Below, in pieces: positions 25,937-64,000 of a stretch of 64,000 nucleotides of DNA. This DNA comes from Gossypium raimondii (Eukaryota; Streptophyta; Magnoliopsida; Malvales; Malvaceae), in contig NC_068569.1 of NCBI RefSeq assembly GCF_025698545.1, positions 744,001-808,000 on the forward strand, read 5' to 3'. The notes beneath the pieces are model-generated. The model had not been told where the DNA came from, searched no databases, and saw only the letters and a list, made by a program, of their open reading frames with translations. A program made the translations under genes and the position numbers. Each line of letters begins with the position of its first letter. Positions within the stretch are counted from its first letter, which is position 1.

Positions 25937-26842
25937 GGGCAATTTACCAATAAAAGTCTTTTTTTTTTCAAAAATTATCGAAATGGGCTTATTTTTAATT
26001 ATTTTCCGAAATTATCTTTTTTCGGGGAAATCACGTCCACATCAATAGCGATGTCGAGTGCAGCGTCGAAATCGCGTCCAAGTCGGTAGCGAGATCTTGA
26101 CGTGGAAGGAAATCGCGCTTTCAAGGAAGCGATTTCCTTCCACATCAAGATCTCGCTACCGACGTGACACGATTTCGGCCCTCGCGTGAACAGTACCCAA
26201 TGGTCAAAAAAATAAAATATCCGGGCCCATTTCGATAAATTTTAAAAATATAGGGCTTTTTTGGTATTTTGAAAAAATAAATTTTGAATCTTTTATTTTT
26301 TTAATCAATTAACTCTTCAATATTACATCAATAGCAACAAGTACAAAAAAAATTCAAAATTGTTACCAACAAGATTTGAACCAAGATACTAAGGAAAAGA
26401 GCAAGCATCTTAACCAACTAAGCTAAACTAATTAATTAACATATTATAGAAATATTGTTATTATCTTAATTATATTAATTACGTTCTAACGATTTATCAG
26501 ACCTATTTCATACACATGTCAAATCAGAAAAAATAATACAACAATTATGTAAAAAATCCGGTGTTTACTTCAAATAAATAAGGAAAATAATGATTTGAAT
26601 GTTTCAAAATTCAATTTTAAACAGAAAAAATCAAAATTTAGGGGCAAAAAAGAATCTTTTTCGATGAAAACTGCGGCAAACCGCCTTCTGTTTGTTTGTC
26701 ACAGTGATCTCGAAAAGTTATTCGAAATCAAAAAAAAAATCGTCTTAATCGGACAACCGAGCTAAAAGTTATGACCTTTCAAAGTTTTCCAAGCTAAAAA
26801 ACATAAACTGTTGATCCACGTCAACAAATCGCGTCCTCGTAG
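25937..26842 (-). mobile_element. Non-autonomous element with tRNA-like body, copy 1 (truncated)
   Basis: The first 340 bp (25937-26276) form a foldback cassette: GGGCAATTTACCAATAAAAG at one end and, inverted at the other, CAAAATACCAAAAAAGCCC. A GC-rich centre carries repeated CGCGTCCA and GACGTGGA words. The body follows in reverse orientation, with a tRNA-like segment at about 26365-26437, then a segment (26640-26810) matching 34335-34500 of copy 2 inverted. The end at 26842 stops inside the far arm, so the element is truncated there. No protein-coding capacity. Confidence 0.75.
26082..26163. repeat. 35-bp near-perfect inverted repeat
   Basis: Arms at 26082-26116 and 26129-26163 agree at 34 of 35 positions when one is inverted, with a 12-base loop. 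The arms contain GGTAGCGAGATCTTGA and GGAAGGAAATCGC. It lies in the GC-rich centre of copy 1. Confidence 0.9.
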
Positions 26843-27703
26843 GCATATAATTAGTAGCTGATTTTTCTTGAGTTTTTAATTACATATAATGATGAAAGTG
26901 ATATGCGCTTACTTGGCATAGTGTCGTTGTTTTAACTTTTACGCAATCTTATTCGAAACATTCATGCCACATCAGCATATATTCTATTAAAATCATACCA
27001 CGAAATCATATAAAAAAATTATATTTGTTTAAAAAAGTAACTGAATTATTAAGTAATTGCTAAAATAATTTTTAAAGCTTAATTATGACATGCGACGCAG
27101 AAACGATAACATATACCTATCGTAATTACGGCCATCTCGATATTATCAAATATAATTATTCAAAATAGTAGTAATTTTATATTTCAAGCTATATGGCTTG
27201 GTTCTTTGCTTGATTGCCATGGATGGGAAAGTCTTTGCTGGAATCATGCATGTGCTACTTGGAGATAAATGGGGTGCCACTAGTAACCGGCTTTGTTCTA
27301 TTTAGTTCTTTGTGCGTAAGGCTTACTCTTCTTTTTATTTACCCAGAAAAAAATATGAACTTCAAAAAAGAAAAAAAAACCCAGAACCAAGTCCCTTTCA
27401 TAACATTGGGTGAATAAATATCACTACATAATAATGAAAAAATATACTTGTAAAATTACACAACATCAACATCGAACTTCATCAGCAATACCACGTAGAC
27501 GAATAGAAGTGAACACAAAGATACTAGGGTTGTTGGTCTTAGGTCCCAATCTGTGTTACAAAACATATAAATTCCTCGAGACATAAACTGATATCATGCA
27601 CATGTATGGCCTCCGACATCTCTTTTTTCTCTTTGGTTATATACACAATAGCCAACTTGAAGGAGAGACAGCATTTACCGGAATAAAAAGATCCGAAAAT
27701 GAA
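26843..27703. other. Spacer and CESA1 3' flank
   Basis: AT-rich DNA. The 200-300 bp next to 27703 are probably the CESA1 3' UTR. The frame at 27214-27417 shows no family resemblance. Confidence 0.45.
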
Positions 27704-30700
27704 CTAACAGTTGATGCCACATTGACCATTAGCGGCAGCTTTTGTAGCTTCTGAGGTGAAGGGGTCGATACGCACCCACAGCAATGAGAAGATGGAAGCA
27801 AGAAGTATAGACCACACGATGACAATTGTAGGGGTACGATTTTGACGACCCACCAAACCTTTCAAGAAAGGATACAAATGAGCAATCACCCAGATGGCAA
27901 AGAAAAGCTTGCCAAAAAGAGGACCCCAGGATTGGTAACCACTGTTTATAGCATACGACACGCCGGCCACAATGCCCACCAGGTTGATAATGAGTACTGT
28001 GGTTGGAGGAATGAGAAGTGATGTCCATTTGAAAACATAAAGTTCGGCAAAATCGCCATCATCATCAGACGCCTTTGAAGTGACAGTGAAGTTGGTATCT
28101 ATTCCAGCAAGCACTTTCAGAAGACCCTGGAAAACAGCAAAGAGATGAGCTGATGTCCCACCAATGACCCAGAATTGTTCATTTCTCCACCAGTCTTCGA
28201 TACTGACACCACTCCACCTAAGCTCAAGTATTCCAGTGGCAAAAATGGAGACGAAAAGGAGAATGAACCACATGCTAGCAAAGTTGCTTATCTGCAAAAA
28301 GATTGGAGGAAGAACATACATCAGTGTCAGAGGAAATAGTTTTTAGAGGGCTACAGGGGTAGAAATCAGTTTCAAAGGAAAAAGGGAAGCTCTAGTAATC
28401 ACTTACCTCAGGAATGATAAATTTTCCTGTCAGAAGGCAAAAGGCAGGAAGCATACAATAAGCAAGCAAAGGAATAGAGGTGAGGGGGTAAACAATGGTG
28501 TTAATGTATGCCAGTCTCTCCAGAAGCCTCAATCTTCCTTTGTAACCATACCATATGGGGCAATGTCTACTCAGCAAAATCTCAATAGAACCCAAGGCCC
28601 ATCGAAGCACTTGGTTCAGACGATCAGAAAGATTGATAGGAGCAGATCCCTTAAATGCTGGACGAGGAGGCATGCAATAGATTGATATCCACCCACGAGC
28701 ATGCATCTTAAAACCAGTCAAAATATCTTCTGTAACAGAACCATAAATCCATCCAATCTAGTGACAAGAGGGAAAAAAAAAAAAAGGGTTAACACATATA
28801 AAAAGGGAAACCAGGTAAGGGCACTACTAAAGGCCATGATACTTCACAACTGACCTCCTTGCCCCATTCAGTCTTGTCCTCGTATCCACAACTAATAACA
28901 TGGATTGCTTCTTTTAAAAGTGTTGCAGGATTGGTTGATGGTGGAATGCCTCCTTGTTCCATGAAGGTAGCAGCAATAAATACCGGGGACTGACCAAATC
29001 GCTTCTCTAGTCTCTTCTGAGACATGAGAAGAGATCTTTCTTCCTCATATCCTGCAGAAAATAATAAATGAAATTGAGACCAGTCAGACCATGGGCAATA
29101 CTTTTATACAAACTGCATGATCTTGAATAATGTTGATTCTGGAAAAATATGATATAATAAAAATTTTAAGACAGCCACGCTGAAAAGGGAAGAACCCACA
29201 CTGTATCATATGCAATATAGAATGATAGGATCTAGTACTATATTAGAGATAAAAATCAGAAAGTAATAGAGTAGTTTCGACCAAAAGCCCACCTTCTACA
29301 CCCTCCTCAATGTCTTCCATATTGAAAATAGGGATGGTCGATTCAGTTCTCTTAGCTGCCCTCTTCTTGTCAATGTATTTTTTATTCCCACTCTTTCCCT
29401 TCTTTCTTGAACCACAACAACTCTTAACAATAATATTTGGTTCCAAATCTGCTTCTGTCAGAACCGGATCATACCCATATAGAGCTTGCCTGTTGAAACA
29501 GCAACCAGTTCCCACATAGACAGGACCTTGGATGCCATCTAACCCTTTCAAGTTAATCTGCAAAATACAAGCACAAAATGAACTACCATCCCCCGTTAAC
29601 TAGTAATTTGAAACAAGTTCTATAATGAAGCCAAATTAACGGGTCATACATCAAAGAACACAATATTCCTATTGGCATATCGATCGTGCAAGTCAATGCC
29701 ATCAAAACGTTGAGGGAACTGCACATAGCACGTCTTCCTTCCATAGGCAGGATCCATCATGAAACACATTGCTTCTTTAAGAGCTTTACTGTTATTGAAG
29801 TAGTGATCACAATCGACATTCAACAAATATGCCCCATTGGTAAGAACAGCTGAAACTCGAATCTGAGGATCAAAAGATGCCCAGGTTAGAAAATGAAACA
29901 GACAATCGCCCTACCAAGTTGCAAGGGCAGAAGGTCTAAAACGATTTTCCTGACAAAAAACTGGCCCATATGTCTACACGACACATTCCTTAGTAAACAA
30001 TATCCAGCAAAGGAACCAAGGAAGGATTATTGCAAAGGTATGCAACTGACTATAAATATTATGCTCTAAAACATTTCGGTTAGATGCAGTCCCGGAAAAA
30101 GACCAGAGGACATCTGTGACTGCTTAAGAGATACATAGTGAAATTGAAAAAGGGCAGAGAATTGCATACCAAAGCATTCATGGCTCCAGCTTTCTTGTGG
30201 TGTTGGAAGCCAGGTCGCTTCTCACGAGAAACATAGATAAGGCGAGGTAGCTCATTTCCATCAGTATCAAGCCCCCCACTATGACCTAGAAACACCTGTT
30301 GTTCAACAAAATTACATTAGAAAATAGAAAGAACCATGATAGTAAGTAATCACAGAACCAACTTTACTGGAATGCAACTCAGTTGAAGGATAATACCTGT
30401 ATCATTCCTGGATGATCTCTTGGGTTATTTCCAGGCCATGGTGTTCCATCCTGCATTGTCCAACCTTCTTCAGGCATTTTCTGAGCTTTGGCAACAAGGG
30501 CATTGATCCGCACCTTGAATTCTTCATATTCTCTCTGTCAAAAGAAAATTTCACCTTTCTCAATGTTAGAAAATGTGACATCTTTTTCCCATTTAATAGG
30601 AAATAGTGAGTGGAAGAAACATTTTTTTAGATTTTATTTTCTCACGTTCTAAAAATTTTCATTGTACTTGGGTTGGAACCCACTTAGGCCTATTGCGGAA

Positions 30701-33700
30701 TTCTTTCTTCAGTTTTTTATTTACTTATTTATGCAGTGTCTAACTGCAAAAAAATATACGAAGGTATGGACAGTTTCAAGCAAAGCTTACCAAGAAATAC
30801 CCACAAAAAGGACAGGAAATCATTTTAAGGTCTATTGTAAATTAATAAATATCTTAATAGGTCCAGGAATCAATGTTTAAGAAGGCACACATAAGCATAA
30901 TTAGGCATCTTTACACCGACCTTCATTGCACGACGCTCCTTGACAAAAGAAGGCTTTATCTTGTCCTTTAGATAATCAATCTTTTGAGCAAAATAAAACT
31001 CAGGAGCTCTAGGCTCTATACTGTGCTTCTTGCAGAAAGGCACCCACTTCCTTGCAAACTCTGCAGTTTCAGAGAGGGCTTCAAAAGTCAGCATAGCTGA
31101 ACCATCATCAGAAACATAGCAAGCTACTTTGTCCACAGGGTAATCCACCGCAAGGATTGACAAGACAGTGTTCGCTGTGATAAGCGGAGGCTCTTTGAGT
31201 GGATCCACTGTACTGACAAAAACATCTACAGGGGATAGCTGTGATGGTTCCCCATCCCGGTCATATCTAGAAAACAGAGCCAACCAATATTAATGTTATG
31301 ATAACAGACAACAGCACAAAAAATATACATAGGCAGACAAGAGCAAAGGATTTTTTCAGCCAAATATGAAACAAACCATCAGCGAGGTAATAGAACTGAC
31401 CTCAAAGCTAGCCTGTCAAGGTAGGTCTCACGATTAATGGGATACCATTTTGGAAACTGATCTAGAAGCCAAGATAAAGCAAACCAAATCTCACAGATAA
31501 CAGAAGTTAGCCACAATGGATATGCATCTTTCACTGGATGTGTTGCACGATATTGCAAGAAAAAGCCCAAAATGATGAGACGGAGAATGATGACAACACG
31601 ATAAGGGGTCAGGTGAGACGAAGAAATAGGCACCACACGACTCAAAGGTTGACGAGCATCATCAGCCCTGTGGAACAAGAACCATCAAACTTCAAAATCA
31701 AATGCATAGATGACATCAACTGAGTAAAAAATCATTCCAATTATGACTACAAAGTCAAAAGGAATGGACACAACTTGCATCTAGAGATAGAAATATAAAA
31801 AAAGTGACAATACTCCAAATTAAAATTTGACCAAAAAATTAAGTATGAAAAAACAAAATTAAAGATTGAAAAAATAAACTTAATGTAACTTATATGGTCA
31901 TTTAGATATATAAAAACACTCAATGGAACATGGTAAACTAATTTAAATTCTATTCCAGACAAGATAAGCTCACATTTGCAATTCATCCCCATTCGAACCA
32001 GTTCCTTCTATATCTCCCTTCCCTTCAGGGTATCTATTGTTCATATGCATCACATTTTTCTCCTGTTTGAGTTTCCAACTTTCAACCCTTTCCTTCCAAT
32101 CAACATTCCCAAGGCCATAAGAATTCAAGTCCTTTGTTGGATCCACAATTCTCACCGGGACTACAAGAACAGATGACATATAATTGAGATAATAAACACT
32201 TCAAAAAGGGGGAAAAGAAAAATCTCGTAAACAAACCCAATGACTTAATTACCTGGTTGCCTTGGGTCAACATAAGGAGAAGAACTAACATTCTTTTCAG
32301 AAGGACCCAAAGGACCTGATGTCGTTCGCACCGATCGATTGTCCGGTGTAGCAATTTCTCCAGAAACCTGAAAATGTTGGCCTATCAGTTAGAAAAATGA
32401 CCATTTAAGTAGCAGAAATCATAAATCTCATGGTATTAATCAGCAGAGAATATATTAGCAAAGCTAGTCACTTCCCCAAATACAAAAGGCTTTTCTTATG
32501 ATTTAACCAAACCATGTTGGGCTATACATGAGAATTAAAAGGCTGATGATAGCAAGATTGCAATGCTACAAAACCAAGCAAGAATGAAATGATTTTGCCA
32601 ATTAAATCTAAGTAGGAGAAACCATAATGTATGACTTGAGTTTTCCAACTTTGAAACGGAAACTCAGGAATTGAACAGCACAGCTTGATCACCAAGTAGA
32701 TAGATGAAAGGGTACTAAAAGATGAAACAGATAATCGCATCTTTGCAAACTCCATAACATGAATAGGTACAGAAGCACATAAAACGCCTACCGTATGGCC
32801 ATTGGTTAGAAGAGGGATTGGTTGTTGAGATTCATGTCTCGAGGATGAAGAAAGATCCACATCTTCACCCTGCCATTGCCTCCTAGCCTTACTGAGTCCT
32901 TGAGCATAATCAAACTCATTCTCCAAGTCATCAACATCTTCCTCATCATCATCTCCCTCCACTCTAGGACTCCCTGAAATATTCAGAAATTACTTACTTC
33001 ACACATGATATAAAAATCTTAGAAGCCAAATCATAAAACGAAATTCCTAAGAAAACAAAAAAACCTTTATGCCTCTTGTATCTAGTCTTGCACTGGGGAC
33101 AACACTGAGTCCCATCTTTCCGTTCATACTCATAACAAGGCCGGCAAACTGGGAAGGCACACTCATTGCAAGCAACGAACACATCACCGGCAGCACCAAC
33201 TCCAACATTATCACCACAGATCTGACATGTCTGCCCATTCAAATTCTTTAGCGGTTTGGGCTGCATTCAGAAAGGACAATTAACGCAGTTAGAAATCTTC
33301 TGAAAATTTGCAGTTGAACCAAATAAAACCATATGCTTAAATATAAAACCAAATAGCCACAGCAAATCATCGAATGACCAGACTCTACAGATGAGTGTCT
33401 AGAATAAAAATCAGAACCAAATCTCAAGATCTGATTATGTTCACTAACCAATCATTCAATTCCTCAGTCAATAAGCTTCAAAGTAAAGAATTGAATTTAC
33501 TTTCACTCAAATGACCGTTAGATCTTAACAACTATGAACTTTTTAAGTCCTTTTCTATGATAACAAAACTCAGATCTTAACATCACACTATTAGAATAAG
33601 TAAAAAATGATAAAAGAAAAATCAAACTAGAATAATGAAATAAGAAATGAGACAAACCCCACTATCAGAATCATGGCGAATCCGAACCAACTGGTTAGTC

Positions 33701-33738: not shown

Positions 33739-34117
33739 TATATTGTTATTACAGATCAAAAGGGAAGGGTATTAAATGAAAAATATAGATATTAAGAGAA
33801 GTGAGAAAAAGCTGTCGGCAATTTCTCCCCTTCAACAAGCCGTCTCCATCTTCCCCATACTCATTCCAGCTATTGTGTGGGCTTAATGGGTTGTCCCTTT
33901 TATCACTTATTTTTTTCTAATTATTTAGTATTTTATTATTTTCTATGATGTAACAAATTTTACCGGGTGAACCAGTTGCTATCTCCCTCCCCCTACTACC
34001 TAACACTGCTCGGCTTTGCTGATTTTGTCATTACGGCTCGGCTGCCTCAGCTTTATAGCCTCCTTTGACTTTTTAATTAAAAACTTCTTTATTACATTTA
34101 ATTTCAATGATAAATTA
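33739..34117 (-). promoter_or_regulatory. CESA1 leader and proximal promoter
   Basis: Upstream of the CESA1 ATG, the first 150 bp include pyrimidine-rich minus-strand sequence typical of a leader. Further out is a C/T-rich plus-strand patch (33975-34060). No TATA element was clear. The promoter is cut short by the transposon starting at 34118. Confidence 0.4.
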
Positions 34118-35189
34118 GGGTAAATTATACATAAAAGTCCTTTTTTTTTAAATTTATCGAAATTGCCCGGTATTTTATTATTTACCGGAATGGGCCATTT
34201 TCCCCGAAATTACGTCCACGTCAGTGCGATGTCAGGGGATGTGTCAGCAAATCGCGTTCACGTCAGCGCGATTACTTATGTGGCAACAAATCGCGTCCAC
34301 GTAAGCGCGATTTGCTGACGTGGAAGTAATAATTCATTAACAGTTTGTGTTTTTTAGCTTGGAAAACTTTGAAAGGTCATAACTTTTGGCTCGGTTGTCT
34401 GATTGAGACGATTTTTTTTTCGAATAACTTTTCGTGATCTACGCGCTGACAAACAACCGAAGGTGGTTTGCCGCAGTTTTCGTCGAAAAAGATCCTTTTT
34501 TACCTCTAAATTTTGATTTTTTCGGTTTAAAATTGAATTTTGAAACATTCAAATCATTATTTTCCTTATTTATTTGAAGTAAACACCGGATTTTTTTTTA
34601 CAGAATTGTTGTATTATTTTTTCTGATTTGACACGTGTATGGAATAGGTCCGATAAATCGTTAGAACGTAAATAATATAATTAAGATAATAACAGTATTT
34701 TTATAATATGTTAATTAATTAGTTTAGCTTAGTTGGTTAATATGCTTGCTTTTTCCCTTAGTACCTTGGTTCAAATCTTATTGTCAATAAATTTGAATCT
34801 TTTTGTACTTGTTGCATTTATTTTTTAATCAATTAACTCTTCAATACTATATTAATATATATTATTAGTACAATAGTATACACGGATTGACAATTTGAGC
34901 TACAATATTATGAATATTAACTACAATACATAATTTGAGCTACATATTACAGTAATACATTAATATGTATTATTAGGAGCAAAATACTAAAAAAAGGGGC
35001 AAATTACACATAAAAGTCCTATTTTTTTAAAATTTACGCTGACGTGGACGCGATTTGCTGACACGCCCCCTGACATCGCGCTGACGTGGATGCAATTTCG
35101 GGGAAAATGGCCCATTCCGGTAAATAATAAAATATCGGGCCCATTTCGGTAAATTTTTAAAAAATAGGCCTTTTTTGGTATTTTGCCCC
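34118..35189 (+). mobile_element. Non-autonomous element with GC-palindromic ends and tRNA-like body, copy 2 (most complete)
   Basis: An 8-bp direct repeat ATAAATTA flanks it (34110-34117 and 35190-35197). The left arm starts GGGTAAATTATACATAAAAG. The right arm, inverted, starts GGGGCAAAATACC. About 160 bp of arm match, including GGAATGGGCCATTTTCCCC and repeated CGCGATTTGCTGACGTGG words. A copy of the left terminus recurs internally at 34997-35038, so the right part (34997-35189) looks like a self-contained foldback. The body (34331-34996) contains the tRNA-like segment and is shared, in inverted orientation, with copies 1 and 3. No transposase frame. An 8-bp duplication suggests hAT, while the long arms resemble Mutator-like elements, so the superfamily is open. 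Confidence 0.75.
34723..34790 (+). other. tRNA-like segment with pol III A- and B-box matches
   Basis: TTAGCTTAGTTGG (34724-34736) fits the A-box consensus TRGCNNAGYNGG. GGTTCAAATCT (34768-34778) fits the B-box GGTTCGANTCC with two deviations. Spacing is about 32 bp, as in a tRNA body. The acceptor stem cannot be formed cleanly, so it is not called a tRNA gene. Corresponding segments occur inverted near 26365-26437 and 49395-49465. Confidence 0.5.
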
Positions 35190-35760
35190 ATAAATTACAC
35201 CTAAGGTCAATAAATTATTAATAAATTTATGTTTTAATCATTTAACTTCAAAAATTACAAATGATCCACTAAACTATTTGAAATTTTTCATTTAAGTCAC
35301 TAAACTGTTCATAAGTTTTAATTTAAGTCACTGAGCCACTAAGGGTTTTTTTTTTTTTTAAATCTGGATAGCAAGTTCCAAACGTGAATCGACGATTGGT
35401 ATGACGAATCTATACCCATCACAAGTAGAAAAATATACCTTAGATTTAAATCGATCTGACAGTTAATGTTAAAAACCGAATAAGAAAGTTGTTTAGATTT
35501 TGGTTCACAAATATATGACATTCAAAGATATTTCATGAATTTTTTTTAACTATAGAAGAAAAAGGGAATGAGAACTTTTAATTGGTGCAGGCGGTGCAAA
35601 CAGAAAATGCCATACAACACTAGGTTATGACAACTCAATGACTTAAATGAAAACTTTCAAATAGTTCAGTGACCATTTTGTAACTTTTTAAAGTTATGTG
35701 ACCAAAACATAAACTTATTAATAGTTTAATGACTTTGGGTGTAGTTTACCTTAATCTCAA
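35190..35760. mobile_element. MITE with about 130-bp inverted ends, abutting copy 2
   Basis: The left end (TAAATTACACCTAAGGTCA, ATTATTAATAAATTTATG, then CACTAAACTATTTGAAA) matches the reverse complement of the right end (TAAACTACACCCAAAGTCA, CTATTAATAAGTTTATG, then CACTGAACTATTTGAAAG). The internal part is unrelated spacer with no coding capacity. Its left terminus coincides with one copy of the ATAAATTA duplication of the neighbouring element. Confidence 0.7.
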
Positions 35761-37709
35761 ATATGTACAAAATATGATATTCATAGATGTTTTTAACCAA
35801 CTAGTGTTGGACAACGATAAGGCATATTGCAGTCTCGTGAAGAGAGCTTGGGTTCGAATCTTGGAAACAACATTGTTAAGAGGAGTAACTATGAACTCCA
35901 AAAAAGATTAATCTTCATAGACCATATAACAAACATGATAGCTTCAACTTGTAAAAATTAAAACCTAAATTATAAACACTAATTATAAAAAATCAAAATT
36001 AAACCTGAACACTAAATCGAATAAATTTATGTTGTAAAAGAGTAAACATAAACATGTAAATCATGTAAAAAATTGTAGTAAGTAATTTGTAGAAATTAAA
36101 ACATAAATTAGAGATCAAATTGATATAACTGAAAAATGCGTAGGACTTAAAAATAAAATTAATCTAAATAGAATTAAATTTTGAATAAATCATATAATAA
36201 TTTTAAAATTAGCCTTAAAAGTAAAATTTAAAAGCCTCTTAAAAGTGCGTTCCTTGGTTACCAAAAAAGTGTATTCCTATAATATAATATGTATGATTTC
36301 ATAGGTAACAATTTTACATGTTGTAATTTCTTTTTTTTAATTTTATTTTTCTGAAAAAGAATTTATTTTCTACAGTTATTCTCGTATTTTTATTAGCAAA
36401 TCTAATAGATGATTTATTATTAGTCGTGAACAAATTAAAGAATAGGATTATAGATATTCCAAACCCTCGTGTAATTTACAATTATATAGTTTATCATTTG
36501 TAATTTAAAAATTTATATTTAGTTATCTTTTATATGCTTACAAACCAAAGATATATGAGATAATTCATCTATATTAATTTACACTCAGAACTAGCCGTTT
36601 AGCTTAGCCACACGGCTCTTCACCCCTTTTTACTATTTGCTTACCAACCCGGTAATATTGTTACACGTGTTCAGCTGACACTTAACCACTTTCCTTCACG
36701 GAAATGGACAACTTACACATTATACAACGTTTTTCCTTGCTGGCAATAGCCTGTTCTTAAAAGTACCGGTTATTGCCGGTACTCCGCATCTGCCACTCCT
36801 TTGCCTGTCGGTGGACTCAATAGTCTATACTCCTCCAAGTTCTTAATTTTACAGGATTTCAACTCATTCCGAATTTACAAATATACCCTCTACCTTATGG
36901 TGCGAGAAGTGTTTTTTTTTTCTGTTAAACTCACAGTGGAATTATTTTCAACTTTTTTCTAATTTAATAATTTTTTTTTAAATTTCATTGATGAAAGTAT
37001 TTTGATTAATTGAATCAATTAATATTTTATTTTATTTTTTCATAAACAATTCTAACAAACCATTAGAATTTAAAATAATATAAAGAAAAATACAAGTCAA
37101 GACAGCCAATGTTGGGGCTTTCACAAAAGCAAATTAGTGAAAATAGTAACTAGAAATATGCCAGTAATAAATAACTACGGTACTATGTTTCATCATTTGG
37201 TTCTTGTGATTTGAGAACTGATGGTATTTTTTCTTTCAAAACACCACACACATAAAAGTAAAACACAAGTATTTAACAACAATCATAACTGGTGCTCATT
37301 GAAAATTATTACTAACAACAAAATACATCAATGAAAGTAAGTTACAAAGAATTTCCCAGTTTACTCTAAAAAAAAAAATTCCCAGTCTAAATACCATCCT
37401 CAAGAAGTCAAAATTGCAAGAATCATACCTCTTTCAATGAACAGTAACCCCAAAATCTGTTCATGCACAACGTATCTTCAAGGGTATAAGGAAACAGGAA
37501 GCATGAACCAATGAAAATCTAAAGATCACCAAAAGCTTGAACTCGAATGATCCGATTATTATAGGTATTCTCCCAGTTCTATAGTTAGAAAACCAACCAA
37601 TTATAGAACACAGGCATGGAATGTTAAACATACTGTTAATTACATTTAACATGCCACAATTGGATGACAGCCCAAACTATATTATTCAATGAGCTGAATG
37701 GTTATTTCA
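35761..37709. other. Spacer upstream of CESA1 and 3' flank of the PPR gene
   Basis: Mostly AT-rich. A GC-richer patch lies at 36590-36840, with ACACGTGT near 36663, but no frame is convincing. The last 250 bp are probably the PPR-gene 3' UTR. Confidence 0.4.
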
Positions 37710-40097
37710 TCACCAATAGTCTCCACAAGAACAAAGACCATCTTTAAAATGATGGAACCGATTAGCATCCCTAACCACGATGACTCTCTCAGTGATCTTG
37801 GATATAAATTTAGTGGCAGTATGACAATCTACACAAACTCGTAGATTCTTGAAAATTCTAATTTCAGTTCCAGGGTCTGTAGCAATAAGACCAAAAGCAA
37901 TGGCTAATTTCTCACTGTGAACATTTATCATTAGTTCCTTCTCTTCCTCTTCTACATCATGCAATGCGGTATCAATCTCAGTCTGAAACCCTGCCTCCTT
38001 CATTTTCCTTATTAATTTTTCTAGCATTGCATAGATTGCTGATGCTTGAGGATGGGACTGATCACCAGATGTAAAGACATGTGGAGTTTCACTGATCTCA
38101 ATTAAAGTGCATCCAGGAGTCTTTGCCAACTTCCTTTTCTTAACATTTTGCCGGACCGAAGCAGCCAGTCGATAGTTCCTCTCAACTGAGTATAAATTTG
38201 ACAGTAAAACATAATATCCTACACTTTCAGGATCCAATTCAAATAGCTTTTCAGAAGCCACACGAGCAATCTTTTTATCCTTGTGGATCACACAAGCACC
38301 AAGCAATGCACCCCATTCAGCAGCCCCTGGCTCAACTGGCATTTCCTTTATAAACTTTAAGGCCTTTTCTAGTTGGCCGGCTCGGCCAAGGATGTCAACC
38401 ATGCAGGCATAATGTTCAGGTAACGGCTTATAGTGATAATCAAGGATCATAGACTGGAATATTTTTTCTCCTTCTTCCACCAAGCCAGCATGACTGCAAG
38501 CATATAAGAGAGAAAGAAATGTCACACCATTTGGTGTAACCCCAGAATGTGACATCTCAGAGAAGAGCTTTAGTGCATCCTGGCCCTGGCCATGAAGACC
38601 ATAACCTGAAATCATTGCATTCCAAGTCACCACATTCTTCCCCACCATCAAGTCAAACAATTCTCGAGCCTCGCTAATGCCACCACATTTTGCATACATA
38701 TCAATTAAAGCAGTTGAGACATATATGTTAGACTCAAAATTCTTGCTTTTAACTAGGCTATGTACCCATTTCCCCAGACTAAGAGTTCCAAGCTGAGCAC
38801 AAGCTGAAAGAATGCTTGTAACCGTGACAGGGTTGGGACTAACTTTGGATCTCTGCATTTCTTGAAAAAGAGATATTGCTGCTTCGGTCAATCCATTTTG
38901 GGTGTACCCTGAGATCATAGCATTCCAAGAGGCTGGTGTTTTCTCAAAAGACTCGTCGAAAAGCAGCCGTGCAGATTTAATCTCATTTAGTCTGCTATAA
39001 ACAGTAGTTAATGCTGTTGAAACAGAAGGTTGTGAGAGAATACCAGATTTCACACAGAAACCATGAATACAGTCAGTAAGACTTAAATAACCAAAAGGAT
39101 GAAAGACAGGAATCAACCCCACAATTGAGCTTGAATTGACCTTTTCCCCGGAACCAAGGAGTTGTTTAAAGAGCCTTACTGAACACTCACTCTCACCATT
39201 GCTAGTATACCCCGAAATCATTGCATTATAAGAAACCAAATCTGGTCTGCGTATCTCTCCAAACAATAACTTAGCTGCCTCAATGTCCCCACATTTTGAA
39301 TACAATGAAATAAATCCGGTAAGCACATGAACATACGAATGAAACCCCAGTTTTATAGCTAAACACTGAACCTCCATTCCCAAAGTCAATTCTTGCAGCT
39401 CAGCCAAAGCCGGTAAAATAGCTGCCACAGTGGTTGAATCCAAAGGAATCCCACCATCTTTAAGCATACGCTCAAACACCCAAACCGCATCATCAAAACA
39501 ACAATTTCTAACCAACCCAGAAATCATAGAATTCCACGACACTGTATCTCTTACAGGCATTTTATCAAACACCTTTCGCGCCAAGTCAATCCGCCAATTC
39601 TTTAAGTAAAAATCAACAACGGCAGTGCCCACAAACAAATCCGATCCATACCCATCAACAACCGCATGTTGATGTAACAAAATCCCCACTTTCTCATCCG
39701 AAAGGGTTGAAGCAGATGCGATAGCGAAAGCGTAAGTGAAGTTATCAGGCTTGAGATGAGTGCATTTCCTCAAATGGGTGTAGAGCGAAATGGAATGGGC
39801 GTTAGAGAAGCCTTTGATGAGGACATTGAAAAGGAAGAGATCGGGGTTAGGGATGGAGAGGAATAGGTGACGTGCGTAGGAGGTGGCCTTGAGGTCGAAG
39901 AGCCTGTGAGTGAGTTTAGTAATGGTGGAGATATCATTTTGGAAGTCATTAAGGATGATCTGAGCGTGGGTTTGGGTGAGATGAGAAAGGGTTGTGGATT
40001 TCTTGAGTAGGTTGAGGAAAAAGTTTCGACTTCCTGTGGGGGAGTAAGTGCTTGTTATTGCGGACTTCATTAACATCTGCTTTACTATGCAAACCAA
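37710..40097 (-). CDS. DYW-class pentatricopeptide repeat protein, At4g30700-type (795 aa)
   Basis: Intronless frame of 795 codons. A short, weakly hydrophobic, Ser-rich N-terminus fits an organelle presequence. It is followed by a long tandem of PPR motifs of the PLS type (repeated VSWNSMISG, VSYNAMISGYT, ASWNAMISGYTQNG, VTWNAMISGYG units), then E/E+ motifs (VEPGAAEWGALLGAC; PGCTLIEI) and a complete DYW domain. In the DYW domain the cytidine-deaminase-like HSE is at 727-729, CVDCH at 755-759, CSC at 789-791, and the protein ends in DYW. Known: DYW-type PPR proteins bind specific organellar transcripts and convert C to U. Closest recollection is Arabidopsis At4g30700, reported as mitochondrial editing factor MEF29. 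The target site cannot be inferred here. The first ATG at 40097 is used; later in-frame ATGs within the presequence are possible starts. Confidence 0.92.
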   Translation of the reverse strand: MVCIVKQMLMKSAITSTYSPTGSRNFFLNLLKKSTTLSHLTQTHAQIILNDFQNDISTITKLTHRLFDLKATSYARHLFLSIPNPDLFLFNVLIKGFSNAHSISLYTHLRKCTHLKPDNFTYAFAIASASTLSDEKVGILLHQHAVVDGYGSDLFVGTAVVDFYLKNWRIDLARKVFDKMPVRDTVSWNSMISGLVRNCCFDDAVWVFERMLKDGGIPLDSTTVAAILPALAELQELTLGMEVQCLAIKLGFHSYVHVLTGFISLYSKCGDIEAAKLLFGEIRRPDLVSYNAMISGYTSNGESECSVRLFKQLLGSGEKVNSSSIVGLIPVFHPFGYLSLTDCIHGFCVKSGILSQPSVSTALTTVYSRLNEIKSARLLFDESFEKTPASWNAMISGYTQNGLTEAAISLFQEMQRSKVSPNPVTVTSILSACAQLGTLSLGKWVHSLVKSKNFESNIYVSTALIDMYAKCGGISEARELFDLMVGKNVVTWNAMISGYGLHGQGQDALKLFSEMSHSGVTPNGVTFLSLLYACSHAGLVEEGEKIFQSMILDYHYKPLPEHYACMVDILGRAGQLEKALKFIKEMPVEPGAAEWGALLGACVIHKDKKIARVASEKLFELDPESVGYYVLLSNLYSVERNYRLAASVRQNVKKRKLAKTPGCTLIEISETPHVFTSGDQSHPQASAIYAMLEKLIRKMKEAGFQTEIDTALHDVEEEEKELMINVHSEKLAIAFGLIATDPGTEIRIFKNLRVCVDCHTATKFISKITERVIVVRDANRFHHFKDGLCSCGDYW

Positions 40098-41465
40098 GAG
40101 TCGAACTCTCTCTCGCTTTGAATCATACCAGAGGTAAAATGGCGGGAAACAGAGAGCAATGGCAAATCCTGATAATTTTATTGAATCTGTTGATTTTGTG
40201 AATAAAATTTTATAAAATTTCTAATATTTAATATTAAAAATGATAGATAAAAGATAACTAATAAAAAAAATAAAAGCATAATGGTCTTAACGATTAAAAT
40301 GAATATTATTATCAATCCATTAATGTGTGAATTGAGTATATTGAAATGTATTATTCTCATCAATGTTATGGGAAGTTATAGTATAGATATAATCGAACCT
40401 ATAGTTTTAACTGTTTGAAACTTTTTAAGTTAAAATTAACTCACGACCTTTTAAAAAAATAAATTTAGCCATTAATATTTTAAAAATAGTCACACTATAT
40501 TTTTAACATAAACATCAATTAAAACATTAAATTTTAAATACCTCATCCAGCATGTCAATTTGTGTGTATTTTATGGTTTTTTTAATTCTTATGAATATTT
40601 TATAATTTTTAAATTATTTGTTGATGTGTAATATAAAATAAAAAATCTAATGTCGAATGAAGTACACGAGGAGTGTTATGTTGGTTGCCATTCCAATATC
40701 ATTAAAAATAATGTATTAGTTAACATTTTCATTTAAAAAATTATTTGACTCTTTTAAAATGTTAATGATCAAAATTAACACAATAAAAGAATAAGGGCTA
40801 AATTGGCAAAGAAAATGTAATATTGAGGGTTAAATTTATTATTATACTAAAATTAAATTCAATAGAAAAATTGAAAATTATATAAATTGACATTTATGTT
40901 TAGAGTATGATACGAGAATATCTTTTATTTGAGTAACCGTACTTTTGAATGGTAGCGATTCTTGAGACTATCTCTAATGGTGGTGATGGTCGGACAATCA
41001 AAAAAAAATTCGGCCTGGTGAATTGGAATCACCGGATTTGGGGGACATTATTACATGTTTTATTTCTCATTTAAACTTTTTCTTGTAGATTAAAAAATAC
41101 TCAGTGAATGACGTAACTGATTTCTTGTTTTAAGCAACTCATAAATGGAATTGGCATTGGGCCGACCAAGCTATTCTTTCAACACGGGGATTACTTAAAT
41201 TTTCAATGGATTTATGTTCCTCAACACCAAAGAAAAATAGAAGAAAATTGGAATGCTGTAGAGAACAAAAACATTTAGCAATTACACGGAAGTGATCACA
41301 AAGTTGAGCTATTTTCAATTGAATGACAAAACTTATAGTTGGTACAATGAATATATAACTACACAAAACTTTCACTCTAATTTTATTCTGTCTTGTGCAT
41401 CTCCATTCTTGTTTGTTCATACATCACATACCATAATCTAAAAGAACCACGCAAGATGATTTTTT
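40098..41465. other. PPR upstream region and CESA7 3' flank
   Basis: AT-rich spacer. The frames at 40178-40363 and 41139-41420 are not conserved-looking. The stretch 41200-41465 probably contains the CESA7 3' UTR. Confidence 0.45.
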
Positions 41466-44400
41466 TCAACAGTTAATGCCACACATTGTAGTGTCTGGTC
41501 CTTTGGTTTTCATCACAAATGGATCAATTCGGACCCAAAGCAAGGAGAAGATTGAAGCTAATAGCACTGACCATATAACAACAATGGTTGGGGTCCTGTT
41601 TTGTCTCCCCATTAAACCTTTAAGGAATGGATAGAGATGGACAATCACCCAGAAAGAGAAGAAGAGCTTCCCAAAAAGAGGTCCCCATGATTGGTATCCA
41701 TTGTTTATGGCATCTGAGATGCCGGCAACGACACCGACTAAATTGATGATTAAGACAGTAGTTGGAGGAATTAGAAGGGTTGTCCATTTGAAAGTATACA
41801 ATTCCCCGAACTCCTCGTCATCAGTTGCCTTGGATGTGACAGTGAAATTAGTGTCAATACCAGCTAGAACTTTCAACAAGCCTTGGATAACCGCGAACAA
41901 ATGTGCTGAAATGCCACCGATGACCCAAAATTGCTCATTCCTCCACCATTCTTCAATGCTTACTCCACTCCACCTTAGCTCGAGAATACCAGTTGCAAAG
42001 ATTGAAAGAAACAAGGCAATGAAGAATAGACTTGCAAAGGTGCTTATCTGTATGAACAAGAAAATAAGAACATTAGCAGGTAAAACTATTTAAACTTCAA
42101 ATGGTTGAAGGAGAGTTTGTTTATTTACCGGTGGCATGATAAATTTATCGGTAAGTAAACAGATTGCCGGCAGGGTACAATAGGCGAGAAGTGGTAAAGA
42201 TGTGAAGGGGTAGATGGTTGTGTTGACATATGCGAATCGTTCAAGCCATTTTAGCTTTCCTCCCTTGAAACCATACCATGCAGGGCAATGATGACTAAAG
42301 AAAATTTCAACAGAACCGAGTGCCCATCGAAGGACTTGGTTTAGTCGATCCGATAGATTGATGGGAGCTGAACCCTTGAATGCAGGCAACTTTGGCATGC
42401 AGTATATTGATCTCCATCCACGGCAATGCATCTTGAATCCTGTTAAGATATCTTCTGTAATCGAGCCGTAAATCCAGCCAAGCTGCACGTACAAAAGATA
42501 CATAAGTCTTGGTGTTTAAACTTGAAAAACATTATAAAGTTTCAAGAGGTTGGCAATGGCATTTTAAGTACCTCGCTTCCCCATTCGGTTTTGTCTTCAT
42601 AACCACAACTAATTACATGAATGGCTTCTTTGAGCAAAGCTGCAGGGCTTGAAGAAGGAGGGACACCACCTTGTTCCATCAGTGTTGAAGTTACAAAAAT
42701 GGCTGATTGTCCAAATTTCTTTTCAAAGTTCATGTGGGACATCAATAACTCCTTGTCATCTTCGGCTGCTGTTAGTATATAAAAAAGATTTTGAAGTTAG
42801 GCGAAGCGAATAAACAATATAAAAAATGTAATGCCATTGGTAACAACCTTCTAGGCTTAGACCATTTGCATTTCCACCATCCTTAGAGTGCTTTTTGTCC
42901 TTTCTGCGGCGTCCAAAGCAAGGGCAGCAACCACAGGTTACCATTTTCGGGCGCTTAGGTCCCTTTGGAGGTTCATAACCATAAAGAGCTTGCCTTCTGA
43001 AAACACACCCCGTGCCGACATATACAGGGCCTTGTATACCATCTAGACCTTTCATGTTAATCTGCAGAAACCATTGAACAAGAGTTAAAAAAGTTTGATT
43101 CATTTATTAGTCCTTATATCATCTTATAGTGTACAAGAACATGCTGCACTTACATCAAAGAAAACTGTGTTCCGATTGGCATATCGATCATGTCTATCAA
43201 TACCATCGAAACGTTGAGGGAATTGGACATAGCAAACCTTTCTTCCAATTTGAGGGTCCATCAAGAAACACATAGCCTCTCTTACAGCCTTGCTGTTATT
43301 TAAATAATGGTCACAATCCAAGTTCAACATAAAAGGAGCATTTGTAAGCACCCCCGAGACACGAACCTGAAATTTTTGTATAGAATTAACATAATTATTA
43401 TCAAATAAAGTAGGGTCTTAGAAAGGAAGGGGAACTTGAATGAAACAGGAGTTAGCAAATGCTTAAGATCTTTACAAGGGCGTTCATGGCACCAGCTTTC
43501 TTGTGATGCAAGAAACCTGGCCTTTTCTCTCGAGATACATAGACGAGACGAGGAAGCTCATTTCCTTCGGTATCATGGCCTCCACTTTGACCGAGAAATA
43601 CTTGAATCATACCAGGGTGATCTTTAGTATTGTTTCCTGGCCATGGTGTCCCATCTTGCATGATCCACCCTTCTGGAGGAACCTTTTGGGCTTTGGCTAC
43701 AAGTGCATTTATCCTAACCTTGAATTCTTCATATTCTCTCTGTTAAAGCACCATGAAAAAATGGTTATTTTTACATAAACCAGCTCACTGCAACTTAAAA
43801 CTCTGAACTTTTTGCATATAAACAGACCTTCATAGCTCGACGCTCCTTCACGAATGTCGGCTGGACTTTGTCTTTGAGGTAATCTACCTTTAAAGTAAAG
43901 TACATCTCCGGTGCTCGGGGCTCTATAGCAAATTTCTTACAGAACGGCACCCATTTTCTAGCAAATTCAGCTGTTTGAGACAATGATTCAAAGGTGAGCA
44001 TAGAAGCACCATCGTCAGAAATGTAACAAGAGATTTTATCCACTGGGTAGTCCATGGCCAAGATCGATAGAACTGTATTCGCTGTTACTAGAGGAGGTTC
44101 CTTCAATGGATCCACTGTACTGACAAAAATATCAACAGAAGCAAGCATGTTGGGCTCACCTTCCCTCTCATACCTGCATCAAACATTAATTATGAGCTCA
44201 AATCAATGCTACACTGTTCACTAGAACATTGTGAAATCTGTTTACCTGAGGGAAAGGCGATCGAGATACGTCTCGCGGTCAATAGGGAACCATTTAGGGA
44301 ACTGATCAAGGATCCATGAAAAGGCAAACCAGATTTCACAGATCACAGAAGTTAGCCAAAGCCCAATTGCATCATGTACCGGGTTCAAAATCCGATAGCG

Positions 44401-48961: not shown

Positions 48962-49650
48962 AAGGGTAATTTACCAATAAAAAGTCTTTTTTTTAATTAC
49001 CGAAATGGGCCTATTTTTTAATTATTTACCGGAATGGTCATTTTCCGGGAAATCACGTCCACGTCGGTAGCGATGTCGAGTGCAGCGTCAGAATCACGTC
49101 CACGTCGAGACGAGATCTTGACGTGGAAGGAATCGCTATCAAGGACGCGATTTCCTTCCACGCTAGCATCTTGCGCTGACGTGGACGCGATTTCGGCCCG
49201 TGCGTGAACAGTACCCAAGAGTCAAAAAAATAAAATACCGGGCCCATTTTAATAAATTTTAATAATATAGGGCTTTTTTGGTATTTTGAAAAAATAAAAT
49301 TTGAATCTTTTTGTATTTGTATTTATTTTTTTAATCAATTAACTCTTCAATACTACATCAATAGCAACAAGTACAAAAAAGATTCAAAATTGTTACCAAC
49401 AAAATTTGAACCAAGGTACTAAGAGAAAAGAGCAAGTATTTTAACCAACTAAGCTAAACTAATTAATTGACATATTATAGATATCTGTTATTATCTTAAT
49501 TATATTACTTACGTTCTAACGATTTATCGGACCTATTCCATACACGTGTCAAATCGAAAAATAATACAACAATTACGTAAAAAAATCCGTGTTCACTTCA
49601 AATAAATAAGGAAAATAATGATTTGAATGTTTCAAAATTCAATTCATAAG
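48962..49650 (-). mobile_element. Non-autonomous element with tRNA-like body, copy 3 (truncated)
   Basis: Same order as copy 1: a foldback cassette (48965-49293) with AGGGTAATTTACCAATAAAA at one end and an inverted CAAAATACCAAAAAAGCCC at the other, GC-rich CACGTCCACGTCG centre, then the reversed body with the tRNA-like segment near 49395-49465. The match to copy 1 ends at about 49650, about 130 bp before the LTR-like unit. Confidence 0.75.
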
Positions 49651-49777: not shown

Positions 49778-52600
49778 TGTAACAACCCGATTTCGATCCT
49801 AATCGGAATAGTAGTTTCGAAACCATAAATCCGAGTAAAAAACAATTTTAAATATTATTTTTTGTGTTTATAATTTGTGAATTAATATGTGTGAAAATTT
49901 TGTGATTTAATTTTACTGTTTGTGTGTTTAATTTGATAAAAGGACTAAATCGCATAAAGTGTGAAAGTTCTATTTTACAATCTAAAGGTGTCTAAAAGCT
50001 ATAGAATATTAATTGGAGGTCCCTAATGTGGAATTAGGCCTTGTTTAGGGTGGTGGCTGGCCACAGGGACAAAGAAAAGATTTGGTCAATTGGTTAGGTA
50101 AAAATTTGGTGACTAAATTGATTTTTATCATAAAATAAAGAAAAGAGTGATATCATCTTTTCTTCTCCACCTTCACCACCGAAATTTAGCAAAATAGGGG
50201 TTTGAGAGCTCAAAAATTTCGGCAAGCTTTTCTCCTTACAAGTAAGTGTTTTGATGATCATTCTTTGATAATTTTTGTACTTTTGGAACCCTTGTAGCTT
50301 GAGCTAGCTAATGAGGGGACTATTTTGCAAATGGTTGGAAGTCTAGGGTTTTGCCATGTGAGCCTTTATGTTGGTTGCTGCATTTTATGGAAGAAAATGA
50401 GTCTTAGTTGTTAAATAAACAACTTTTGTGAAAGGTGTTACCATGAAAACACCTAAAAGGACCTTTTTTGTAAAGGTTATAAAATAGGTGTTAAATATGT
50501 GAAATAAATGACATGTATGGACTTATATTACTCTAGGGAATATTCGGCCAAGCTATAGTGTGGTCAAATTTGGAATATTTTGTATTTTGTGAAATAGGGA
50601 CTAAATTGTGAAAAATGTGAAATGTCAGGGCAAAAGTGAAATTTACTTATTTATGCGTTTTTTGACTGAATTGAATGAAATTATGTTTGAATGAGTTTAA
50701 TTTGAATATGTTTAGATCAAGAATTAAAGAAATCGAACTTGGATCGGGGGAAAACGAAAGTCGTCGATTAATCGTTCCGTTCCGGTTTATCGTTGTCTGA
50801 GGTAAGTTTATAAGAAAATAGATGATATAAATTCTAAATAAATATTAGTTATATATATGCTGAAATGAAAACATGCAAATATATATATGTAGCCGAATGT
50901 GTTTAAGTTCGGGTAATAGAAATAGACGTGGATGTGATTTACCGATATTTAGCACTGAGTGTGCGAGTGTGGAATAGCTATGGCTATACGAACAGCACTA
51001 AGTGCGCGAAACTAAAATGACAATGTTGAATAACGGGCACTAAGTGTGCGAAACAAAAATGACGATGTCGAATAACGGGCACTAAGTGTGCGATATCAAT
51101 ATCAATTTGGTTAAATAAGATAGAGCACTAATTGTGCAACGTCATTATAGCTTCGACAAATTATTTAGCACAAATTGTGCAAATCCAATGAATGATGAAT
51201 GTGACATATAAGTACATGATATTACAAGTATGTAATAGTTAAATAATATATGATATCAAGGTAAGTTGGTTATTTCAATTGTGATACAAATTAGATGATG
51301 CAAATGAAAGTATGTGTGTGTATTAAAGATTATATTTGGCCAAATGGTAAGTGTATGTGATATCACAATTATGTTTTTTTTATGCTTATATATATATGAA
51401 TATGAATTGAATAATTGGTTATGTGATATTGAACTATTAATAACATTGAATTGTTTATTTGCTTATGACTTACTATGTGAAAATGGCTTATTTACATGTG
51501 AAAATGTTTGCTATGTTTTGTTAATAGTGTGGTAAATATTTTGATATATATATATATATAAATTCGGTTATAGCATATAGGTGGAGTGAAATTGATATGT
51601 ATTGTTAATTATTGAAACCGATTAAGGTTTAAGTTCATTCGAAAATACTATTATGTATTCATATAAGGTGATGTTTGATTATGTATTCGGCAATAAATTA
51701 AGTAATAGATGTTAGTTAAGTTATAATACGTATTAGCTAGGTAATAGACATGTTATATATGCATGTGGCGTACTTGACAAATGTTTGATTTGCATATGTG
51801 AGTGATTTTATAATTTGGTTTAGTAATGAAATGAATGAATGGAAGCATGTATTGATTGTAAAAAAAGAAGTTAATTGTGTCCGTTTGGAATGATAAGTTT
51901 GCATGAGTATTTGGTTTAGAAATGGTGAACAGTTGTTTATGAAAATATTCGACTATGATTTTGAATTTAATTTGATAAGTACGAAATATGATATAGGACG
52001 TGTATAATACTGAGCGTTCTTGGTTGATTTGATGGAATGGATTTGATGTATTTAGTATAAAAGTAGAATTTTTAACCGAATATAGAGGTTTTGGATATGA
52101 TAGAGTATTTGAAATTTGACATGAATTATTACATAGGATTTAGGTAATATTTTAATTCGGTCTAGGTGTTGAGTTTGGTAATCTATTAAAGGTAGGTTAA
52201 ATAAACGTTATATGAAAGATTTATTAAATGACCGATTATGAGATAAGTTAGCTTAGTTGTGTGAATGAAATTTGGAATGATTTAAAGCATATGGAAGTGG
52301 TATGTTTTGATTCGATTAAGTTCATGGAAAATGGTCAATGAATGTCAAGTGAACATTATAATATTTTATAAATAAATGTTGTAATATGTGCACTTGGTTT
52401 ATAAAGCGGAATATGTTTGATTATAAATTAGGTATTCGAATATCATGCATGTAATGCTTGTATATTTTGAATAATATATATTTTTAAGTAAAGTAGTTTA
52501 ACTTTGAACCATGAAATGTAATGAATGCTTGCTTTGAGCTATGTTCTGTACAGTAATACCTCGTAACCCAAATCCGGCGATATGGATTAGGGGTGTTACA
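49778..52600 (+). mobile_element. LTR-like unit (2.8 kb), probably a solo LTR of a plant retrotransposon
   Basis: It begins TGTAACAACCCGATTTCG and ends GGGGTGTTACA, so both termini carry the TG...CA boundary within an inverted TGTAACA/TGTTACA. Its composition and start resemble long plant Ty3-type LTRs as I recall them. No gag or pol frame is present inside or next to it. The right flank has no primer-binding site and the left flank no polypurine tract. The flanking five bases (GATCG and ATTAC) are not a duplication, so simple solo-LTR formation is not proven. Confidence 0.6.
50952..51182 (+). repeat. Six spaced copies of a palindromic GCACTAAGTGTGC motif
   Basis: Copies start at 50952, 50995, 51037, 51079, 51125 and 51168, with spacing of 42-46 bp. 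The first three-base half GCAC is mirrored by GTGC in each. The last two copies are degenerate (GCACTAATTGTGC, GCACAAATTGTGC). They lie in the middle of the LTR-like unit. Confidence 0.8.
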
Positions 52601-62400: not shown

Positions 62401-62866
62401 TACTCCATAGTTGGTGTGCTTTGATCCACCAACTACACCGCTCCGTTATAAATATGTATTCTTAAAAATTATTATTACTTTCAAAGTGTTGATATATCCA
62501 TTTCTACCCCACTTCTGCTTTAACTTTCTTTTTAATGGAAAGGCTCCGTTTAAATTTAATTTATGTTATTTTAATATTTTCAATATTTTTTAATAAAATA
62601 TTTAAACATAATTCTTCAAATAATTTAAACATAAAACATATAAATTTTGTGAACATATTATTACAAGTTTACCCTTTTTAATATATATAATTAAAAAGAA
62701 ACCTCATTTCTAGTTTCCCTTGTCTACATGCATCTCTCATGAATCACGCGAGTATTGATTGTGTCAGCGCCGTGTCCGATTCGTGTTTGATTTCTTTCGT
62801 TCCGTTTCCCGGCGTTTCAGACACCGGTACGAGGGTTTCCAGCATTAGTGCTTTAAAGATTGGAGA
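62401..62866 (+). promoter_or_regulatory. SGS3 proximal promoter and leader
   Basis: An AT-rich stretch contains TATATATAA at 62682-62690, about 180 bp before the ATG. It is followed by a GC-richer, pyrimidine-rich leader (62700-62866). The nearby transposon at 62095-62391 limits the compact promoter. Confidence 0.45.
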
Positions 62867-64000
62867 ATGAGTTCGAGAAAAGGAGGATCAAAAGGGAAAG
62901 AGGTATCTGGAGTCTCTCGTCCCAAGGTTGACCAGCTAAGCCATGGTGTAGCGGAAATGAACATGGATTCTTCACAAGATGATGGTGAGTGGGAAGTTAT
63001 TCAAAGAAAACCCAAGAATACAGGTGGAAGCAGTGGTGCAAAGCCATGGGGTTCTCAAAATTCCAACCCTAAACCTTGGAATGGAGGCATGCGGGGTAAT
63101 GCTGGACCTGGAAGAGGCACCGGCGGCAATGCTTGGGCTAATCATGGTGCTGATTCTAGGATAGCAAGTGGCCGAGGGAATTCAAGGCCCCAAATAGTCA
63201 ACAAGAGCTTGGACAACCACCAAGTGCCTTCCAATCCTGTCATTCGCCCGCCTCTTGAGCATGGTTGGAATTGGCAGTCAAGAACTGGTTCCAATCCATC
63301 CAAGGGTTTTCAAGATGGATATGAGAAAGACAATGTCAACGCTGAGGCTGAAAAAGACAACGATGTTGATGATATTGAGGATGATTCGGATGATGTTGCT
63401 GCTGATGATTCTGACAATGAGCTTCTAACCGATGAATTTGATTCAGATTCAAGTCAAAAGAGCCACGAGACAAGAAAGAAAAATAGATGGTTTAAGAAGT
63501 TTTTTGATAGTTTAGATAAGTTGCGCGTGGAAGAGATCAATGACCCAGCAAGGCAATGGCATTGCCCGGCTTGCCAAGGCGGTCCTGGTGCCATTGACTG
63601 GTATCGAGGCCTTCAGCCATTAGGGACACATGCGAAAACTAAAGGATCAAAAAGGGTGAAACTCCATCGTGAACTTGCTGAGCTCTTGGATGAGGAATTG
63701 CGTAGAAGGGGTACTTCAGTTATCCCTGCAGGTGAAGCTTTTGGGAAATGGAGGGGTTTAAAAGATGACGAAAAAGATCATGAAATAGTCTGGCCACCTA
63801 TGGTAATCATAATGAATACAAGGCTTCAACAAGATGATAATGATAAGGTACCCCGAGAACTTGTACTATTTCTGTTTTCCAGTTATAATTCAATGGAATT
63901 TAATTAAATCTTTGTAATTACCGAGGAGCTATTTATGGCGTTGTGTACTTCAGTGGATTGGTATTGGGAACCAAGAGCTGCTTGACTATTTCAGCTCATA
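62867..64000 (+). CDS. SGS3: SGS3 (suppressor of gene silencing 3), 5' part
   Basis: Exon 1 is 62867-63847 (327 codons). Exon 2 starts at 63954 and leaves the window. The protein binds double-stranded RNA and works with RDR6 in cytoplasmic granules to make trans-acting siRNAs and to spread silencing. Seen: a Gly/Asn/Trp-rich disordered N-terminus, an acidic stretch (about 160-195), then the zf-XS zinc finger with C233, C236, H255 and H267 in WHCPACQGGPGAIDWYRGLQ and following residues. The XS domain begins near VWPPMVIIMNTRL (309-321) and continues across the splice with WIGIGNQELLDYFSS-like residues. The remaining XS domain and coiled coil, about 300 residues, lie outside. The GT at 63848 is a standard donor. 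Confidence 0.93.

Follow-up and report, generated by a model that had tools for sequence, protein, structure and literature searches.

Tm1, a Mutator/Foldback family described from root-knot nematodes, is reported to have target-site duplications of 8-10 bp, most often 9 bp, at 45 of its 53 complete elements (PMC3169594). Mutator-like elements (MULEs) in general are described as typically carrying terminal inverted repeats (TIRs) of over 100 bp together with duplications of 8-10 bp (PMC5225508). We analysed a 64,000-nucleotide stretch of the Gossypium raimondii genome (hereafter the window) and identified a three-copy repeat family, previously undescribed and of a known kind (compare Tm1), the members of which are probably non-autonomous cut-and-paste foldback DNA transposons, most likely Mutator-like, carrying a passenger. 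Among the matches listed from open-licence papers, none describes a foldback element or SINE of such kind in Gossypium. The preliminary description of this locus had set the repeat outside the textbook classes, a placing that is not supported: compound ends and a passenger inside a foldback element are already known from Tm1 and from MULEs with passengers. With this family the known plant foldback elements gain one that has clear limits and a conserved passenger; for transposon biology it is one more example of a known pattern.

Three related repeats within the window

Three related repeat copies, at 25937-26843, 34118-35189 and 48964-49644 (copies 1, 2 and 3; Table 1), are alike across both a GC-rich cassette and an AT-rich body, with GC contents of 53-56 % in the cassette cores and 24-27 % in the bodies. 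In blastn comparisons within the window copies 1 and 3 align over 697 columns at 87.1 % identity (823 bits), copies 1 and 2 over 518 columns at 88.4 % (661 bits) and copies 2 and 3 over 287 columns at 91.3 % (386 bits). The likeness of cassette and body among the three copies is far above chance, the best score for copy 2 across 20 simulated windows (order-2 Markov) being 39.2 bits. Three copies with a common cassette-body order had been described at nearly these places, and both the blastn comparisons and the Markov control bear this out. The proposed layout of a cassette beside a body stood in part: the adjacency is real, but in copies 1 and 2 cassette sequence flanks the body on both sides, so that the body lies inside the element. 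In copies 1 and 3 the order runs from a similar terminus through a palindromic core and an inner terminus to the body.

Counted over ungapped aligned bases, the bodies are identical at 299 of 312 positions between copies 1 and 3, 461 of 492 between copies 1 and 2 and 263 of 279 between copies 3 and 2. The cassettes of copies 1 and 3 agree at 297 of 328 ungapped aligned bases (aligned pieces up to 26279 and 49297), and are thus less alike (90.5 %) than the bodies of the same two copies (95.8 %). No fourth copy was found in the 64 kb (blastn, E up to 1e-4); the sole matches outside the copies, at 35691-35748 and 50807-50863 (57-58 columns), come from flanking bases included in the queries. Searches of viral contig, genome contig and plasmid collections, which are not plant collections, returned no relatives, an absence that says little.

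Copies 1 and 3 lie in one orientation and copy 2 in the other. The relative orientation of 41 bases close to the tRNA-like part of the body (34817-34857 in copy 2) is reversed in copy 2 with respect to the other two copies. By eye, short inverted repeats at 34789-34857, 26285-26360 and 49297-49392 surround the reversed loop, which suggests recombination between these short repeats.

Table 1 Features of the three repeat copies (positions are those of the window)
Feature	Positions	Strand	Evidence
Copy 1 foldback cassette with outer and inner terminus	25937..26271	+	297/328 ungapped bases as in copy 3
Copy 1 hairpin, Rfam MIR7486 on both strands	26079..26166	+	75.2 bits on -, 73.7 on +, cut-off 67; fold z -13.1
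Copy 1 body, orientation opposite to copy 2	26272..26812	-	Alignment to other copies
Copy 1 tRNA-like box A to box B	26372..26425	-	0 and 1 mismatches
Copy 1 remnant of far cassette (26834-26843 doubtful), then element end	26813..26843	-	Aligned to copy 2 across junction
Left copy of 8-bp target-site duplication ATAAATTA	34110..34117	.	Exact match to 35190-35197
Copy 2 left TIR and GC-rich foldback cassette	34118..34335 (inner boundary approximate)	+	About 150 bp pairs with right end; 34215-34330 folds
Copy 2 AT-rich body (passenger)	34336..34975	+	34306-34815 matches copy 1 at 88.4 %
Copy 2 tRNA-like box A to box B	34725..34778	+	Box A 0, box B 1 mismatch; cloverleaf call not specific
Copy 2 inner terminus in duplicate, as two head-to-tail variants	34976..35037	+	Sequence and self-matches
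Copy 2 right cassette and outer TIR	35038..35189	-	Self-match to left end
Right copy of 8-bp target-site duplication ATAAATTA	35190..35197	.	Exact repeat of 34110-34117
Copy 3 foldback cassette	48964..49288	+	Alignment to other copies
Copy 3 hairpin, sub-threshold MIR7486	49101..49184	+	42.3 bits, cut-off 67; fold z -5.4
Copy 3 body, far side missing	49289..49644	-	Alignment to other copies
Copy 3 tRNA-like box A to box B	49402..49456	-	0 and 2 mismatches

The neighbourhood contains two tandem cellulose synthase genes on the minus strand (27704-31289 and 41466-44178), three frames of each matching Pfam Cellulose_synt, and copies 1 and 2 flank the first of them. Dispersal of the repeats by a segmental duplication along with these two genes was considered and rejected: copy 2 is inverted, and the 1.5-kb flanks of the copies share only two short matches (36 and 81 columns, 36.5 bits each). 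A PPR-DYW gene lies at 37710-40220, and ARAGORN places a tRNA-Ile inside it (39431-39526, minus strand), probably a false call. A plus-strand frame at 62849-63907 has zf-XS and XS domains, a type which we take to be that found in the small-RNA pathway protein SGS3.

Copy 2 is delimited by inverted ends and a target-site duplication

The outer ends of copy 2 are inverted repeats of one another, with 135 of 149 ungapped aligned bases identical and 5 gap positions, although their first bases differ (left GGGTAAATTATAC, right GGGGCAAAATACC). The 8-mer ATAAATTA stands exactly repeated directly outside both ends. An exact flanking 8-mer occurs in 3 of the 62,880 window intervals of the same length, the interval of copy 2 itself included, and in 27 of 8,983 sampled intervals when 3 bp of slack is allowed at each end. 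Copy 2 lies within, and splits, the left end of an older inverted-repeat element at 34098-35762, the right end of which (GGTGTAGTTTACC) is found at 35738-35750. The two ends of this older element agree at 104 of 122 ungapped aligned bases. An imperfect repeat of 11-12 bp (TTAATTTCAAT at 34098-34108, TTAATCTCAAAT at 35751-35762) flanks the older element, which, judging from its ends, is presumably Mutator-like. In an empty-site alignment the joined site and the right flank alone score equally (74), so this alignment by itself does not prove the 8-bp length of the duplication, for which the support is the exact repeat and the fit to the end of the host element.

The inverted outer ends and the exact 8-bp duplication indicate that copy 2 is a whole mobile element, and the nested order fits transposition of 34118-35189 as one unit. 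They also favour the foldback DNA transposon of the preliminary description, and the terminus that it had placed in duplicate inside copy 2 is present. The combination of inverted repeats at both outer ends with a target-site duplication, as in TIR DNA transposons, was found in copy 2 only. Copies 1 and 3 retain one outer end each: in copy 1 blastn homology extends some 20 bases into the far cassette, to 26833, and copy 3 is truncated inside the body at about 49644. Neither shows a duplication: near the far end, the closest counterpart of the intact end's 8 bases differs at 3 positions. A duplication in only one of three copies counts against the transposon reading of the family as a whole, as do the weaker agreement of the cassettes than of the bodies between copies 1 and 3 and the absence of a transposase match among the long window frames described below.

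As to how such a unit arose, two neighbouring small foldback MITEs may have trapped the body, their outermost ends then moving the whole block. All three copies have inner termini (26262-26271, 49279-49288 and 34976-35037), as if the left cassette had once been a complete MITE. Gradual expansion of the ends, as is proposed for foldback families in PMC3169594, gives however the same picture, and no free MITE copy was found within the window. We regard this composite origin, which is a sub-case of the foldback transposon reading, as a tentative possibility.

Coding capacity and class

None of the 25 window frames of at least 120 amino acids matched a transposase (Pfam, E up to 0.001). There was no sign of coding in the 6 frames scanned against Pfam, all from copies 1 and 2, out of 53 of at least 30 amino acids in the copies; one sub-threshold match had an E of 0.2. 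The element would consequently depend on a transposase made elsewhere.

With TIRs of over 100 bp and a duplication of 8-10 bp, copy 2 fits the definition of MULEs in PMC5225508. Long compound ends with internal repeats, the marks of a foldback element, are present, and a cassette folds on itself in each of the three copies, the right cassette piece of copy 2 excepted. The family could instead belong with hAT or P elements, and the duplication of exactly 8 bp is typical of both; Galileo, moreover, is an existing foldback of P type. Elements of the hAT group have short TIRs with hAT-type end bases. The ends found here (GGGGCAAAATACC and GGGTAAATTA) are not of that form, and TIRs of about 150 bp combined with an 8-bp duplication agree with MULEs as described in PMC5225508. 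The first bases also resemble those of the adjoining older element (GGTAAACTACACC), for which a Mutator-like nature is itself our presumption. A hAT- or P-like affiliation is accordingly rather unlikely in our judgement.

For a non-autonomous foldback transposon of Mutator-like type, a transposase supplied from elsewhere would bind the outer inverted ends (GGGGCAAAATACC / GGGTAAATTA) and the GC-rich subterminal repeats, and would move the whole unit, leaving an 8-bp duplication. The interior would be a passenger of about 500-650 bp, possibly with a decayed tRNA-like stretch, that was inside the element before the copies split. Recombination or template switching between inverted repeats would account for the differing lengths and layouts of the compound ends.

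Palindromic cores and the MIR7486 family

Folded as DNA, the cassettes give z-scores of -13.1 in copy 1 (26067-26180), -4.7 in copy 2 (34215-34330) and -5.4 in copy 3 (49100-49195), so that the self-folding described for each copy is confirmed in all three. No such fold was obtained for the right cassette piece of copy 2 (34996-35120; z 0.07), and in the same copy 34725-34870 is no more stably folded than shuffled sequence (z -1.24).

Against the Rfam family MIR7486 the copy 1 hairpin aligns with all 87 model positions and scores 75.2 and 73.7 bits on its two strands (cut-off 67), a match that the preliminary description had not foreseen. It is the only copy of the three above the cut-off, copy 3 reaching 42.3 and 37 bits and copy 2 30.3 (part of the model) and 25.2 bits. 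The same hairpin also matches unrelated microRNA models below threshold (mir-3156, 44.9 bits, cut-off 76), and hairpin shape alone therefore gives part of the MIR7486 score. Members of the family are named in cotton papers as ghr-miR7486a/b and gra-miR7486d (PMC11945813, PMC6537205, PMC8335595). Mentions of miR7486 extend to several papers that are not on cotton.

The cassette might accordingly be read as a bona fide microRNA gene and the repeats as duplicated microRNA loci, a reading to which the above-threshold match in copy 1 and the cotton names lend weight, together with the tubby-like targets predicted for gra-miR7486d in one of the three cotton papers. However, the two strands score nearly equally, the ends and duplication of copy 2 are those of a transposon, the copy 1 hairpin resembles unrelated microRNA models as well, and ghr-miR7486a is given no predicted targets in the study of PMC6537205. 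Plant transposons, mostly MITEs, are described as a known source of annotated microRNAs (PMC3086885, PMC10004981), transposon hairpins among them (PMC3086885). We consider a genuine microRNA gene very unlikely.

The simplest reading is that MIR7486 is another microRNA annotation of a transposon hairpin. Under the foldback transposon interpretation the palindromic core, if transcribed, would form a double-stranded RNA hairpin, a likely source of the 'MIR7486' small RNAs. The MIR7486 family may thus be transposon-derived, and the whole Rfam family might have arisen from this foldback element. A plain transposon origin is thereby suggested for sequences that are treated as ordinary microRNAs in cotton target-prediction papers.

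The passenger and its junctions

The 20-base junction TGGTATTTTGAAAAAATAAA between cassette and body is identical in copies 1 (26262) and 3 (49279), and the far junction between body and cassette is common to copies 1 and 2 apart from a 12-column gap. Since each of the two junctions occurs in two copies, the union of body and cassette is older than the dispersal of the copies, and the three copies are separate insertions. Chance nesting, in which a small MITE of foldback type came three times to lie next to an AT-rich repeat unrelated to it, finds some favour in the stretch from the body to the right cassette, which differs in copy 2 (34858-34995; 34858-34975 is without a blastn counterpart in either of the other copies at E up to 1e-4), and in the cassettes of copies 1 and 3, which have an outer and an inner terminus and resemble a complete small MITE, but it is scarcely probable given junctions shared to the base or nearly so and a duplication in copy 2 that encloses body and cassettes together. 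Three chance nestings had been named beforehand as the outcome that would overturn a single element, and within the window the shared junctions contradict them.

The body contains a box A without mismatches in all three copies and a box B with 1, 1 and 2 mismatches in copies 1, 2 and 3, the two lying at tRNA spacing as in tRNA-derived SINEs. A looser cut-off for the two boxes gives 23 matches in the window, of which the three copies account for 8, whereas 20 simulated windows average 12.65, and the loose scan therefore says little. With no mismatch in box A and at most one in box B, a cut-off picked after the hits were known, the window has 2 matches (copies 1 and 2), while 1 of 60 simulated windows and none of 2,000 simulated bodies have any. 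ARAGORN at a 60 % threshold calls a cloverleaf in all three copies, in 137 of 1,000 simulated pieces and in 187 of 941 other pieces of the window, and these permissive calls are not specific to the copies. At 80 % it calls one of the three copies (12 of 1,000 simulated and 12 of 941 other window pieces), and at 90 % none of them. The Rfam tRNA model gave no match in the three copies at E values up to 5. Where a tRNA-derived SINE would have a 3' tail and a target-site duplication of its own, only AT-rich TTAATTAATTA-like words on both sides were seen by eye, and no SINE ends were defined.

The tRNA-related body of the preliminary description thus draws some weak backing from the Pol III boxes and none from an Rfam tRNA match, a specific cloverleaf or SINE ends. 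At best, the tRNA-like part of the passenger is tRNA-related sequence in decay, possibly of SINE type. It could also be imagined as a Pol III-type internal promoter that drives the element's own hairpin, a self-contained small-RNA cassette giving rise to the MIR7486 small RNAs. Copies 1 and 3 have the boxes directed at the hairpin, but in copy 2 the boxes face the non-folding right cassette and have the folding left one behind them. Runs of T, which terminate Pol III, follow right after box B and count against transcription of the hairpin from such a promoter, and we find this arrangement extremely improbable.

Comparison with known foldback elements

As described in PMC3169594, Tm1 resembles the cotton family in several respects: its terminal inverted repeats are compound, differ in length and contain internal repeats; it has non-autonomous copies, and some of these may have picked up sequence from the host; and some copies are without an end motif or the duplication. 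It differs in its nematode host, in having a known putative transposase and in an inner sequence that is a histone hairpin, the two being likened by anatomy. As far as anatomy shows, the cotton family would work in the same way as Tm1.

MULEs of the Pack-MULE type are described as having, like copy 2, TIRs of over 100 bp, a duplication of 8-10 bp and foreign DNA between their ends, whereas the ends here are palindromic and compound and the passenger is not recognisably gene-derived. By description, FARE of Arabidopsis and Galileo of Drosophila share foldback-type compound ends with the cotton family; FARE is reported with a MULE-domain transposase and Galileo with a P-type transposase. In comparison with Rfam MIR7486, the hairpin is here the palindromic core of a putative transposon end, with copies 2 and 3 falling below the cut-off of the family to which copy 1 is matched.
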